Of a stretch of DNA of 20,582 bases, positions 470-12,539 are shown piece by piece. How positions within the stretch are numbered: position 1 is the stretch's first letter; each line of letters begins with the position of its first letter. This DNA comes from a virus. Below the pieces are notes generated by a model. It was not told the DNA's origin. It was given only the letters and a program-made list of their open reading frames with translations, and ran no database searches. The translations under genes were made by a program, and so were the position numbers. The stretch lies in IMG/VR virus record IMGVR_UViG_3300046009_002074, positions 1-20,582 of that record. One strand, written 5' to 3'.

Positions 470-497
470 GTCGTTTCCTTTCTTGTGGATATGTTAC
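467..497 (-). repeat. Duplicated leader, copy 1 (before the partial leftward gene)
   Basis: The 31 bases upstream of and including the ATG at 469 repeat the leader of the neighbouring gene. Positions 467-486 are identical to 707-726, and 483-497 are identical to 732-746. The copy carries the ribosome-binding site and one ATATCCACAA element (492-483). It lacks about 9 bases present in the other copy. Confidence 0.8.
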
Positions 498-774: not shown

Positions 775-960
775 ATACTTTTTTACGAATAGTTGCGGAT
801 CGTCGTCGAAGCGTCGGACAACATGGCGTTGAATGCGAGGCGCCGCTTGAAAACGTCATATCGTCATGAGAGTTGTTATAGGGAGTTTTAGAATAAATGT
901 AAACATAATAGTATAGGGACTGCAAAAAGATTTGAGCGACCGAAAACGTCATGGCAATCC

Positions 961-975
961 GACGATCCGACGTTT
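961..975 (+). repeat. Direct repeat copy 1, GACGATCCGACGTTT
   Basis: This is an exact 15-base match to the copies at 1028 and 1075. It is also the right arm of an inverted pair, AAAACGTC (943-950) against GACGTTTT (969-976), which is followed by more T residues. Confidence 0.75.
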
Positions 976-1027
976 TTTGTCCCGCGCCGTCCAGGCGCAA
1001 ACATTCTGCATGAACCTGCGTCGTCAT

Positions 1028-1042
1028 GACGATCCGACGTTT
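1028..1042 (+). repeat. Direct repeat copy 2, GACGATCCGACGTTT
   Basis: This is an exact 15-base copy. The identity with copy 3 extends leftward to CATGACGATCCGACGTTT. It overlaps the perfect palindrome GTCATGAC at 1023-1030. Confidence 0.75.
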
Positions 1043-1074
1043 TGCTGGCGCTTGTCGCGACCTTCTCATCGCAT

Positions 1075-1089
1075 GACGATCCGACGTTT
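1075..1089 (+). repeat. Direct repeat copy 3, GACGATCCGACGTTT
   Basis: This exact 15-base copy starts 47 bases after copy 2 and is preceded by CAT as in copy 2. It is the copy closest to the rightward genes. Confidence 0.75.
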
Positions 1090-1248
1090 GATTGTCAACT
1101 TAACGTAATGCTTTAAGTTTACATTCAATCTGCATCTGAGCCGTTTACATATAGCTGGTTGACATTCAGAGGGAGGGGGGCTGGGCCGAGGGATCTCCTT
1201 TAAGAAAAACGAACTTTTTTATTTTTTATTTTAGTGGTAAAAGACTTT

Positions 1249-1755
1249 ATGTTTGAGTCTCTTCCATACGAACCGCGCAAAATAGAGGCGACGGAAGCCG
1301 TCCTAGAGCGCATCTATCTCGCCGCCCGCAAAGGGCTGAAAGGCGACACGCTCGCCTACGCCGCTGGCATGACGCCGACCGAGTATCGGCGGCTGGTGCA
1401 GTTTGATCCGATTGCGGAGTATGCTGAACAGAAAGGCCGCGCTGAAGGTGAGGCTGAGATGTCTGAGGTGCTGCACAACGCCGCCCGCGCTGGCGACACT
1501 AAGGCGGCGCTGGACATCCTCAAGCATGTCCACAAGTGGACGGCCCCGCAGTCGGTGCAGGTGCAGGTCGAGCAGCGCATCTCTATTATTGCGGCGCTGG
1601 AAGAGGCGCAGCAGCGCGTGATCCAAGGGGAGTTAATAGATGCAGGTGCCGATCTACTCAGCGGACGAAGAACAGAAGCTGATGGCGACGCTATGGTCGG
1701 CGCAGGTGAAGAACGACCCGGTCGCGTTCGTGAGGATGGCGTTCCCGTGGGGTAA
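1249..1755 (+). CDS. terS: Terminase small subunit-like protein
   Basis: This is probably the DNA-recognition subunit that brings concatemeric phage DNA to the large terminase. The N-terminal half (about residues 10-60) is helical with a helix-turn-helix-like segment, GDTLAYAAGMTPTEYRRL. A second helical part contains ARAGDTKAALDILKHVHKW, which is typical of small terminase subunits, and then an EEAQQR coiled stretch. The assignment rests mainly on this and on the position immediately before the large terminase. I chose the ATG at 1249; a GTG at 1234 in the same frame adds five residues, and neither start has a strong ribosome-binding site. The last roughly 39 codons run out of frame across the beginning of terL (116-base overlap) and are rich in Gly/Arg/Glu. 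They may be a genuine tail or the mark of a frameshift, since TAATAG stops lie in another frame at 1634-1639. Confidence 0.75.
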   Translation: MFESLPYEPRKIEATEAVLERIYLAARKGLKGDTLAYAAGMTPTEYRRLVQFDPIAEYAEQKGRAEGEAEMSEVLHNAARAGDTKAALDILKHVHKWTAPQSVQVQVEQRISIIAALEEAQQRVIQGELIDAGADLLSGRRTEADGDAMVGAGEERPGRVREDGVPVG

Positions 1756-3169
1756 GGCCGGCACGCCACTAGAGCATTTTACGGGGCCTAGACGGTGGCA
1801 GCTAGAAGTCCTCCAAGACCTGCGCGACCACATCAAAGAGAACGGCGGAAAGGTCGACTTCGAAACGTTCCGCATGGCCACCTCATCGGGCCGCGGCATC
1901 GGCAAATCCGCGCTCGTCTCATGGCTCGTGATCTGGATGCTGACGACCCGGATCGGCTCGACGACCATCGTGTCGGCCAACTCTGAGGCGCAGCTTCGCA
2001 GCGTCACCTGGGCTGAGATCACCAAGTGGCTATCAATGTGCCTTAACAGCCATTGGTTCGAGGTAAGCGCTACCCGAGTGCTACCGGCCAAGTGGATCGC
2101 AGAACTGGTCGAGCGCGACCTGAAGCTGGGCACGCGCTATTGGGGCGTGGAGGGGCGGCTGTGGTCGGCCGAGAACCCTGACAGCTACGCGGGCGTGCAC
2201 AACTTCGCGGGCGTCATGCTGGTGTTCGATGAGGCCAGCGGTATTGACGACAGTATATGGGCGGTGGCCAGTGGCTTCTTTACAGAGAACACTCCTAATC
2301 GTTTTTGGCTTAGCTTTAGCAACCCCCGCCGTAACAGCGGATACTTCTACGAGTGCTTCCACAACAAGCGCGACTTCTGGCGAAACAAGGTTGTTGACGC
2401 AAGAAGCGTGGAGGGAACTGATAAGGCAGTCTATCAGCAGATTATCGACGAATACGGCCCCGACAGCGCTCAGGCTCACGTCGAGGTCTACGGAGCCTTC
2501 CCGAACGCGAGCGATGACCAGTTCATACCGTCGTCATTGGTTCAAGACGCGCAGACACGCCCGCCATCACAGGATCAGACAGCGCCGATAATCGTGGGTG
2601 TCGACCCGGCGCGGTTCGGGGCAGACGCTACGGTCATCGCTATCCGGCAGGGCCGAGACATCATCGGCATACGCCGCTACCGGGGCGACGACACCATGGA
2701 GGTGGTGGGGCGGGTAATCGACATCATAGAAGAGTTCAGGCCAGCGCTCGTCGTCGTGGACGAGGGCGGGCTAGGCGCGGGCGTCGTCGACCGGCTCAAG
2801 GAGCAACGATATAAGATCCGGGGCGTCAACTTTGGGCAACGGTCAAGCAAACCGATCATGTTCGGGAACAAGCGGGCTGAGATGTGGCACGCCATGCGGG
2901 AGTGGCTCAAGACAGCCAGCATACCAAACGATCGCTTCCTCAAGTCCGACCTGACCGGCCCAATGATGAAGCCCGACAGTAAAGGGACTATATTCCTAGA
3001 GAGCAAGAAGGACATGAAGGCGCGAGGGCTGGCCTCACCCGACGCCGCCGACGCTATCGCCGTGACGTTCGCGTATCCGGTCGCGCACAGAGAGGCCCGC
3101 ACAGTAGACAATAGACCGCGCGTAACGTATGGTGGCAACGCAGCCTCTTCAGGATGGATGGGTCACTAA
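1640..3169 (+). CDS. terL: Terminase large subunit (packaging ATPase and nuclease)
   Basis: This is the motor that cuts concatemeric DNA and pumps it through the portal using ATP. At 509 residues it is a normal length. The N-terminal ATPase has a Walker A-type loop GRGIGKS (84-90), a Walker B strand VMLVFDEA with D197 and E198, and a coupling-type segment SFSNPR (225-230). The C-terminal RNase H-like nuclease shows the expected acidic residues: VGVDPARFGAD (D322, D329), VVVDEGG (D374) and SPDAADA (D468, D471). All key motifs are present, so it should be active. The ATG at 1640 has an AAGGGGAG ribosome-binding site and in-frame stops directly upstream, so the start is secure. Its TAA shares a base with the ATG of the next gene. 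I recognise the sequence as a common prophage-type TerL; headful (pac) packaging would fit the P22-like context but is not proven by the sequence. Confidence 0.95.
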   Translation: MQVPIYSADEEQKLMATLWSAQVKNDPVAFVRMAFPWGKAGTPLEHFTGPRRWQLEVLQDLRDHIKENGGKVDFETFRMATSSGRGIGKSALVSWLVIWMLTTRIGSTTIVSANSEAQLRSVTWAEITKWLSMCLNSHWFEVSATRVLPAKWIAELVERDLKLGTRYWGVEGRLWSAENPDSYAGVHNFAGVMLVFDEASGIDDSIWAVASGFFTENTPNRFWLSFSNPRRNSGYFYECFHNKRDFWRNKVVDARSVEGTDKAVYQQIIDEYGPDSAQAHVEVYGAFPNASDDQFIPSSLVQDAQTRPPSQDQTAPIIVGVDPARFGADATVIAIRQGRDIIGIRRYRGDDTMEVVGRVIDIIEEFRPALVVVDEGGLGAGVVDRLKEQRYKIRGVNFGQRSSKPIMFGNKRAEMWHAMREWLKTASIPNDRFLKSDLTGPMMKPDSKGTIFLESKKDMKARGLASPDAADAIAVTFAYPVAHREARTVDNRPRVTYGGNAASSGWMGH

Positions 3170-11582: not shown

Positions 11583-12096
11583 CCGGACGCTTGGCCCTAC
11601 CGGCGATTTTGTTGGCAACCGACCTGTTCTGCTAGATGACGCGACTTATTTCCGCGACCCGCAGACCAATGTGTCCTACGGCATCAAGTTCATCAACCAG
11701 CAACAGTATGACGGCATCGCCGTCAAGACTGTTACGTCCACATACCCGCAGGTCATTTTTACGAATATGACCTACCCAGACATTGAAATGTTCATTTATC
11801 CGGTGCCGTTGCGGCTTCTGGAATGGCATTTCATTTCGGTCAAAGAACTGACGCAACCGGCCGTTTTGGCTACGCCATTGACGTTCCCGCCAGGCTATCT
11901 GCGGGCGTTCCGCTATAATTTGGCCTGCGAAATGGCCCCTGAGTTTGGCGTCGAGCCGTCAGCGCAGGTGCAGCGCATCGCCATGTATAGCAAGCGCAAT
12001 CTGAAGCGTATCAATAACCCGGATGACATTATGGCGCTGCCATACAGCATTGTGGGCACCCGCCAGCGCTATAATATCTACGCCGGAAACTATTGA
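11383..12096 (+). CDS. Tail accessory factor / packaged-DNA stabilisation protein, P22 gp4-like
   Basis: This is probably the adaptor that binds under the portal after packaging and begins tail assembly. The 237-residue product begins TAGDQINGALRLLGVLAEGE, then QDALTALNQMIDSWNTERLA (about 31-50), both hallmarks of the P22 gp4 family. A beta part follows with YPDIEMFIYPVP and EWHFISVKELTQPA. It ends with a helical segment, LTFPPGYLRAFRYNLACEMA, and SKRNLKRINN, the arrangement usual in this family. In P22, gp4 also has muramidase activity; no catalytic residue can be identified here by eye. The start lies inside the preceding frame. The end overlaps the oppositely oriented HNH gene by 7 bases. 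Confidence 0.9.
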   Translation: MTTTAGDQINGALRLLGVLAEGETPSAETSQDALTALNQMIDSWNTERLAVFSTQDQTFLWPPSALSRTLGPTGDFVGNRPVLLDDATYFRDPQTNVSYGIKFINQQQYDGIAVKTVTSTYPQVIFTNMTYPDIEMFIYPVPLRLLEWHFISVKELTQPAVLATPLTFPPGYLRAFRYNLACEMAPEFGVEPSAQVQRIAMYSKRNLKRINNPDDIMALPYSIVGTRQRYNIYAGNY

Positions 12097-12539
12097 TAAA
12101 TCAAGGACTTATACCTAAGGTAGGCAGCATGAGCTTCTTCAGGCGTATCAAAACACCCTATCTTGATGTGCTTGCGGTTGAGCATTATTTGCGCACGCCA
12201 TTTTCCTTGGTGCAGCGATACACCTCTGAAACCTGCCGCATTATTGCAGTTTGGTCTAGGGATGTTGTGCAAATTCTGCGCTCTGCTCACGTCGCGCAAA
12301 TTGCTGAATTTGTTGTTAGTTTTATCCCCGTCTATATGGTCTACATGGTGAACCGGCCAACTTCCCGTGACATAAAGCCAAGCCAATCTATGCGCAGTAT
12401 ATCGATGGCCATTCACATTTATGCGCCAATATCCGGTTTTCATTTTATCGCCGGCTATCTCACCCGTTTTGCGGCGCGTAAAAACACCTGTATCCGGGTC
12501 GTAGAACAACTCTTGGCGCAGAATTTTTGCGGTAAGCAT
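12090..12539 (-). CDS. HNH homing-type endonuclease with AP2-like DNA-binding tail
   Basis: This is the only leftward gene within the structural operon. The 149-residue product has an N-terminal motif (FYDPDTGVFTRRKTG, about 12-26) and a YTAHRLAWLYVTG segment (47-59). It then has an HNH core with HHVDHIDGDKTNNKFSNLR (H64, H65, D67, H68, D70, N75, N76, N80) and Asn89. The C-terminus (about 101-146) is AP2-like: GFRGVSLHQGKWRAQI followed by a helix, TPEEAHAAYLRYK. This domain order is typical of free-standing HNH endonucleases that spread among phages by cutting alleles lacking them. All expected core residues are present, so it may be active. The ATG at 12539 has a perfect AAAGGAGG site. The gene looks AT-richer than its neighbours, which suggests acquisition. 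Confidence 0.92.
   Translation of the reverse strand: MLTAKILRQELFYDPDTGVFTRRKTGEIAGDKMKTGYWRINVNGHRYTAHRLAWLYVTGSWPVHHVDHIDGDKTNNKFSNLRDVSRAQNLHNIPRPNCNNAAGFRGVSLHQGKWRAQIMLNRKHIKIGCFDTPEEAHAAYLRYKSLIYQ

Follow-up and report, generated by a model that had tools for sequence, protein, structure and literature searches.

A repeat array of constant place and variable sequence upstream of terS in P22-like podoviruses: a putative replication origin

The winged helix of the P4 alpha protein is described as binding the repeats of the P4 origin (PMC4234260), and the C-terminal domains of SaPI Rep and SCCmec Cch2 are reported to bind iterons (PMC7581432). In the account of phage lambda that we cite, iterons bound by the phage initiator O lie beside A+T-rich sequence (PMC3349717), and the helicase of the NrS-1 primase-polymerase has been described as SF3-like (PMC7102993). 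For the PLE satellites of Vibrio cholerae, RepA_N is reported to covary with ori, and experiments to have shown that each functions only with its cognate partner (PMC8263062), so that covariation of an initiator with its origin is already known. What seems to be new in the locus described here is the occurrence of many spellings of an array among near-identical phage genomes, and the location of this array 4 kb from the presumed initiator gene. Our literature search, which covered titles and the beginnings of abstracts and had most subscription journals outside its range, gave, among the entries listed, no description of such a system for lytic phages.

The window, i.e. the whole 20.6-kb stretch of viral DNA analysed here, represents part of a P22-like podovirus genome, as judged from the families to which its portal, major head and head-closure proteins belong. 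Among annotated phages, its closest relatives are MW202483 (TerL 83.5% identical), which is annotated with a P22-like portal and coat, and OR003940, the lake-metagenome phage DSL-LC05 (TerL 65%). As the annotations of these two phages, to which the integrase check was confined, include no integrase, the group is provisionally called lytic. Relatives with 67-77% identical TerL come from MAG bins labelled Rhodoferax, Methylococcaceae, Burkholderiales, Gammaproteobacteria, and also from bins labelled Acidimicrobium and an actinobacterium; since the binning of phage contigs is unreliable, these labels do not fix the host. From about 780 to 1248 the window has a divergence gap, with small genes directed leftward and terS-terL rightward. 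The terS gene (1249-1755, + strand) was assigned to the small terminase subunit by its position, the gene at the same position in OR003940 being so annotated; residues 1-137 of its product had no PHROG or Pfam match. The terL gene (1640-3169, +; PHROG 2, E 1.8e-40), encoding the large terminase subunit, served as the marker gene of the locus. An HNH endonuclease gene with an AP2-like tail (12090-12539, -) lies on the opposite strand among the late genes.

The divergence gap contains a cluster of short repeats. As originally predicted, three exact copies of the 15-mer GACGATCCGACGTTT are found at 961-975, 1028-1042 and 1075-1089, all on the + strand and spaced by 67 and 47 nt, together with two copies of GAAAACGTCAT, at 849 and 942, and a partial box at 796-804, which is an exact inverted 9-mer (GACGATCCG on the - strand). 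That first reading had missed the 20-nt inverted site TCATGACGATATGACGTTTT (850-869, -), which is 90% complementary to 1024-1043 and contains a fourth copy of GACGATCCGACGTTT with two mismatches (851-865, -), and the palindrome TCGTCATGACGA (1021-1032), overlapped by the copy at 1028. Dinucleotide shuffles gave a mean of 0.67 matches at up to three mismatches, and none of 100 shuffles reached the four of the window. The array comprises a composite site (942-976, +), in which the inverted half box GAAAACGTCAT (942-952) is followed by the tandem boxes CCGACGATCCGACGTTTT and which is strongly conserved in the alignment of relatives, a site combining the palindrome with the box GACGATCCGACGTTTT (1019-1043, +), and the site GCATGACGATCCGACGTTT (1071-1089, +). 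A second repeat family is represented by GTTTACATT at 896-904 (-) and, within 1117-1166 (+), by GTTTACATT (1117-1125), GTTTACATA (1143-1151) and GTTGACATT (1158-1166); related repeats compose the array of the relative L092.

The earlier statement that no gene explains the repeats holds as far as it was tested. No reading frame is kept across the region, because it contains indels (22 nt in L008, 1 nt in L044 and L050), is rearranged in L071 and has its sequence replaced in other relatives. A 32-codon ORF running through the repeats, spotted by eye, was rejected, being lost where the arrays change, and a structured RNA was rejected on the unremarkable folding of 940-1240 (z -0.55). The sequence TATAGGGA, at 877 and 912, bears what we take to be a resemblance to T7-like promoters.

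To the right of these sites lie a G-rich block with a CTGGGCC..GGGATCTCCTTTAAGAA element (1171-1209, +), kept in the seven representatives shown with at least 94% identical TerL, which have several array types, and an A+T-rich stretch adjoining terS (1201-1248, +; GC 0.27-0.35 in the intervals 1180-1239 and 1210-1269), which is a candidate unwinding element. To the left, a candidate leftward promoter, TTGACA-16-TATAAC (774-747, within 733-774, -), was read by eye and not reported by the promoter scan. The motif TGTGGATA, presumably DnaA-box-like, occurs three times in the leftward leaders of the window (484-491, 733-740 and 760-767), and its copies at 733-740 and 760-767 overlie the candidate promoter. 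A duplicated leader, CATGTCGTTTCCTTTCTTGT ... TTGTGGATATGTTAC (467-497 and 707-746), precedes two leftward small ORFs. Insertions cluster beside the presumed origin: in G001 an HNH endonuclease gene (L094:9214-9693) separates the array from terS, in L030, L009, L076, L068, L014 and L069 the gap between them is longer by roughly 480 bp, and in other loci a 213-aa ORF without a Pfam match lies between terS and terL (L098:16884-17522). The L151/G011 control region has a small ORF, MKYIHFALDAGMALGFTAFIIGNIIELMTF (translated by eye), between array and terS.

The exact 15-mer has matches in 87 IMG/VR stretches, and among the 80 matches listed 27 loci carry two or three copies. In 26 of these 27, terS lies beside the array; for the other, L073, it is found in the full record (G001), with the HNH gene intervening. 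The alignment of the window with its relatives (20 distinct rows, six relatives with long insertions having been omitted and six identical rows merged) is nearly ungapped over 944-1125, apart from insertions near 980 in L008, L044 and L050 and the rearranged L071, and its flanks are mosaic.

Comparison of 102 distinct control regions, from which nine loci without a recognised terS had been dropped, revealed that the place of the array upstream of terS is constant in the IMG/VR relatives whereas its spelling is not. Phages with 93-99% identical TerL have different 8-9 bp boxes (TGACGAT, TGACTAT, TGGCGAT, GCATAAACT, GCATAAACC, CGCCTAAC and others). Thus, the same place is occupied by ATAGTCAT/TGACTAT in L113 (TerL 99.2%), ATCGCCAT in L107, tandem GCATAAACT in L156, GCATAAACC in L165 and CCCGAT in L162, and in distant relatives by TGTTTACATAAAC (L092), TTGTCCACA (L235), ATGACCCAA (L233) or ACCCACTGGGT palindromes (L093). 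Copies within one genome are largely uniform; variants are mixed in L107, L114 and L148, and two kinds of repeat occur in L162. The original prediction had proposed conservation of the repeat in relatives as a check, and had named as contrary evidence the absence of the repeats from close relatives with the same gene order, together with packaging ends that map elsewhere. Conservation applies to the position and not to the sequence: taken literally, the repeats are absent from such relatives, L113 for example, because the array there has another spelling, and it was this difference that proved informative. What the window contains is one spelling of a repeat array that is fixed in place and variable in sequence. 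Differently spelled sites occupy corresponding positions in the different phages. They lie 50-300 bp from one another, on either strand, and since sites up to 300 bp apart change in concert, a common DNA-binding protein is suggested.

When the ORFs of G002 were compared with 15 other records, three genes contrasted type 1, the array type of the window, with the rest. The primase-helicase is 98, 94 and 100% identical to those of the type-1 genomes holding the gene and 72-84% identical to the other eight, which include G011 with its degenerate type-1-like array; the corresponding values are 95-100% versus 59-91% for dnaAC and 94-100% versus 48-83% (where matched) for g82. The 762-aa primase-helicase combines a RepB_primase domain (E 2.4e-10) with an SF3/D5-type helicase domain (DUF5906, E 9.2e-14; NrS-1 primase chains, E 6e-8). 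Its gene ends 3.8 kb (G001) or 4.1 kb (G002) to the left of the first exact copy, and other genes intervene. Along 14 of these proteins the correlation with array distance was highest in the last segments (0.43-0.47), reaching 0.26-0.39 in the helicase half and 0.09-0.24 in segments starting before residue 260. The C-terminal 100-110 residues or so of this RepB-type primase/DUF5906 helicase are referred to below as the CTD.

For the Mantel tests, redundancy was removed on the combined basis of CTD and control region, which reduced 108 records to 47. The G records, which are listed as linear, were handled as circles; this matters for pairs such as G010 and G011, where gene and array lie at opposite ends. 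A first run on 27 hand-picked near records gave a correlation of 0.42 between array and CTD, 0.43 for the CTD given the helicase and 0.02 for the helicase given the CTD. With 32 records the values were 0.54 for the CTD and 0.48 for TerS; the CTD retained 0.36-0.46 given each gene, but with the CTD controlled for, eight of the ten further genes or segments still gave 0.20-0.33 (p <= 0.02). As this set includes the distant G014 and L092, a near-only run was made on 25 records, a TerS cutoff dropping seven of the 32. Here, in tests that control for ancestry in part and concern a protein picked after the gene-by-gene contrast table had been seen, the Mantel r was 0.37 for the CTD (p 0.001, the minimum), against which ten further genes or segments, some of them situated between primase and array, reached 0.12-0.24. 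Given each of these ten, the CTD remained at 0.34-0.43 (all p 0.001), the helicase given the CTD fell to 0.00, and TerS, dnaAC (0.18), g82 (0.21) and g68 kept residuals of 0.16-0.21 given the CTD. After thinning to 13 records with CTDs less than 95% identical, the CTD gave 0.41 (p 0.005), 0.32 given TerS (p 0.01) and 0.37 given the helicase (p 0.006).

All 19 records counted for CTD class KRHI have TGRCKAT boxes (L092, a KRHI record with neither box family, was left out), and 9 of the 11 records of class KKHC have GCMTAAMY boxes (Fisher 3.8e-6, for records that are not independent). The two KKHC misfits are L056, which has the boxes of the other family, and G013, which has neither. Phages with GCATAAACT, GCATAAACC and CGCCTAAC arrays have a common KKHCFV form of the CTD. 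Natural swaps were also found: G010 and G020, bearing TGACTAT and GCATAAACT arrays, respectively, from different box families, are 89.3% identical outside the CTD and 56.4% within it, while L116 and G002, both of type 1, are 82.6% identical outside and 95.7% within, and G011 and G002 80.5% and 89.6%. A CTD-like domain in homing endonucleases, on the model of the PLE-targeting Odn, was considered and rejected, as the CTD profile found no other ORF below 600 aa at E below 0.56 in 27 records.

The association of CTD and array is one between two broad classes and between near-identical copies. Within KRHI (19 records) the correlations were 0.32 for the CTD (p 0.0015), 0.07 for TerS (p 0.21) and 0.08 for the helicase; thinned to nine records, the CTD correlation vanishes (0.09, p 0.29), so the signal within this class stems from near-identical copies. 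At least three CTD forms occur among the TGACTAT phages, and their mutual likeness (mean 0.73) is the same as their likeness to the CTDs of TGACGAT phages (also 0.73). In L169, which has a TGACTAT array, the first half of the CTD is type-1-like and the second type-2-like (MSPKYTSKRH), the whole being 87.0% identical to that of G002 and 73.9% to that of G010; the CTD of G023 (TGACTAT) is 77.4% identical to both. Within KKHC (11 records) the array is explained at least as well by TerS as by the CTD (CTD given TerS -0.08, TerS given CTD 0.48). In 15 distant records the respective values are -0.01 and 0.38, and in 19 L loci, some of which represent almost identical phages to those of the G records, TerS given the CTD stays at 0.41. 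The primase gene lies outside the window. The nearest relative of the window, L056/L101 (99.2% over 1,837 bp; contig of 9,771 bp), is discordant: it joins a type-1 array to a KKHC CTD identical to that of G019, the C-terminus of its primase-helicase matching the one found in CCCGAT/GCATAAAC phages at 100% identity. The closest relative of this mosaic contig switches several times within 5 kb, by either recombination or mis-assembly. GC skew does not locate an origin; in 8 of 13 genomes its minimum is no more than 170 nt from terS, which is uninformative because position 0 was set at terS and the curve rises almost throughout.

An AlphaFold2 model based on 32 aligned CTDs has a mean pLDDT of 78.7 (82-92 per block over residues 21-110) and the order helix-strand-helix-helix-strand-strand, which fits a winged helix without proving it. 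Against the PDB the model gave weak fold matches (best Z 5.6), Foldseek gave none at E <= 0.001, and the CTD profile run against the sequences of solved structures found nothing credible and no solved origin-binding domain.

Based on these observations, we consider it somewhat probable that the array represents the iterons of a phage replication origin bound by the CTD of the primase-helicase. An origin served by a self-loading initiator fits the locus, because it combines short repeats clustered in non-coding DNA, an A+T-rich neighbour and a CTD class that goes with the box family. Computation places the array at one fixed site, with turnover in near-identical backbones and a broad association of box family with CTD class; from this we infer the following course of events. 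The iterons would sit in the divergent region, with the early genes pointing away to the left and the packaging genes to the right, and the predicted winged-helix CTD would bind their 8-9 bp boxes, here TGACGAT/GACGTTT. Multimers of the primase-helicase would then load on the arrayed sites, the SF3-like helicase would open the adjacent A+T-rich stretch, and the primase would start synthesis. Box family and CTD class would evolve together, and recombination would move whole types, giving unusually polymorphic origins in close relatives.

Less likely, though with the best claim among the alternatives, is a cluster of operators for the early and late divergent promoters, bound by the CTD-bearing protein or another phage regulator, with array turnover as repressor-operator coevolution. 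The array does lie between divergent transcription units, the promoter-like TTGACA-16-TATAAC adjoins it, the genomes encode further HTH proteins, and the CTD leaves the finer spelling unexplained in correlation tests that cover the genes of the compared region. However, among the compared genes of the near clade the array is best tracked by the CTD of a replication enzyme, and the most conspicuous extra regulator, a protein of 203-230 aa, is missing from G001. This protein, which combines an HTH resembling that of DnaA domain IV with another HTH-like stretch, is encoded by several but not all genomes (in G002 at 25451-26137, L098; in G010 at 37757-38404, L252) and has two quite different forms, one in two T2 genomes and another in three T1 genomes plus G011; it was rejected as the partner of the array, as G001 lacks it and yet has a T1 array like that of G002. 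Mycobacteriophage stoperators are repressor sites dispersed through the genome, whereas the exact copies described here are confined to this one locus in nine longer records.

Neutral repeat turnover by slippage and gene conversion, with no trans-acting partner, appears quite improbable. Some arrays do look like pure tandem expansions, e.g. CCCGAT in L162, and the mixed box variants of L107, L114 and L148 would suit such a process, but it does not predict that scattered sites in both orientations change jointly at matching positions, nor that the box family is associated with a domain whose coding sequence lies kilobases away.

The original prediction had called the repeats iteron-like and had offered operators or a packaging or replication site. 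The location of the repeats, the make-up of their boxes and their association with a replication protein favour the iteron and replication part, and an array docking a replication initiator seems more likely than a packaging site. That the array is a pac site bound by TerS we regard as highly improbable, even though it adjoins terS, correlates with TerS at 0.14 in the near set and is better predicted by TerS in the distant set (0.47) and within KKHC (0.74). The pac reading is disfavoured because one identical 38-residue segment of TerS, presumably DNA-binding (TerS has no Pfam match), occurs in 16 of 32 records with at least four array spellings among them, and TerS was rejected as the array partner on this ground; within KRHI, moreover, its correlation is not significant.

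Phages of this clade also encode a stand-alone DnaA domain IV protein (Bac_DnaA_C, E 7e-16), and the motif TGTGGATA, found in the same clade, occurs, irrespective of array type, in 42 of 45 control regions of phages with at least 91% identical TerL and in 3 of 39 others; it is probably the site of this protein, to judge from their distribution. DnaA boxes are of the TTATCCACA type, from which the array boxes differ, and TGTGGATA is separate from the array, in three copies. That the array itself consists of sites for this protein or for host DnaA is accordingly hard to credit: the sequence of the Bac_DnaA_C protein contrasts with array type (with the residual of 0.18 in the near set) and a distant subclade has arrays of TTGTCCACA, which we take to be a known DnaA-box form, but TGTGGATA is a likelier site for the protein than the array boxes, and the protein was rejected as array partner since its key stretch, GGRDHTTIMHG, is the same in four array types (TGACGAT, GCATAAACT, GCATAAACC and CCCGAT).

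If the array is a replication origin bound by the CTD, its polymorphism calls for a cause. We put forward, as a speculation that is rather unlikely to be right in full, that the lytic phage population keeps many origin types, each consisting of an array and an initiator domain, which are exchanged as modules between near-identical genomes, and that rare types escape targeting or titration of the origin. Candidate agents would be origin-directed nucleases, host or satellite decoy origins, and co-infecting phages sharing the initiator. Such escape is a possible explanation by analogy: Odn targets the origin of the PLE satellites, and ectopic lambda origins have been reported to target or titrate the origin (PMC4488673). 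The origin would then serve as a tag for recognition in conflicts of phages with each other and with parasites. Whatever the cause, an origin bound by the CTD would provide, in the winged-helix domains and their boxes (TGACGAT, TGACTAT, TGGCGAT, GCATAAACT, GCATAAACC, CGCCTAAC), a natural series for studying the evolution of origin recognition. It would also raise the question of why a lytic phage needs polymorphic origins.

Compared with known systems, the presumed initiator resembles the NrS-1 primase-polymerase in its helicase domain, to which it is related by sequence, and a weak structural alignment to the CTD was obtained with NrS-1 residues 618-718 (Z 3.4). NrS-1 is described as having an 8-nt recognition sequence in two copies per genome, with no array, unlike the locus studied here (PMC7102993). 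As in the lambda origin, phage iterons adjoin A+T-rich sequence, with initiator binding putative in our case (PMC3349717); in lambda they are described as lying inside gene O. The P4 alpha/ori system likewise joins primase, helicase and a winged helix, which is predicted here and which in P4 is reported to bind the origin repeats (PMC4234260). Its primase is, however, of the TOPRIM type, unlike the RepB-type primase of these phages. SaPI Rep and Cch2, the self-loading initiators, share with the primase-helicase a helicase with a C-terminal domain and short iterons, the recognition of which is putative here (PMC7581432). Their origin is described as lying directly downstream of the helicase gene, whereas the array lies about 4 kb away, past several genes. 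Another difference from SaPI Rep and Cch2 is the fusion of a RepB-type primase to the helicase; lambda O is not known to contain a helicase or primase. A parallel in covariation is PLE RepA_N/ori, where the initiator is conserved except for its DNA-binding domain, which varies along with the origin and is inferred to have been swapped (PMC8263062). PLE is, as described there, a satellite of a lytic phage, with a RepA_N initiator, three semi-palindromic iterons of about 30 bp and two groups. The presumed counterpart here is a primase-helicase with 8-9 bp boxes in more spellings.
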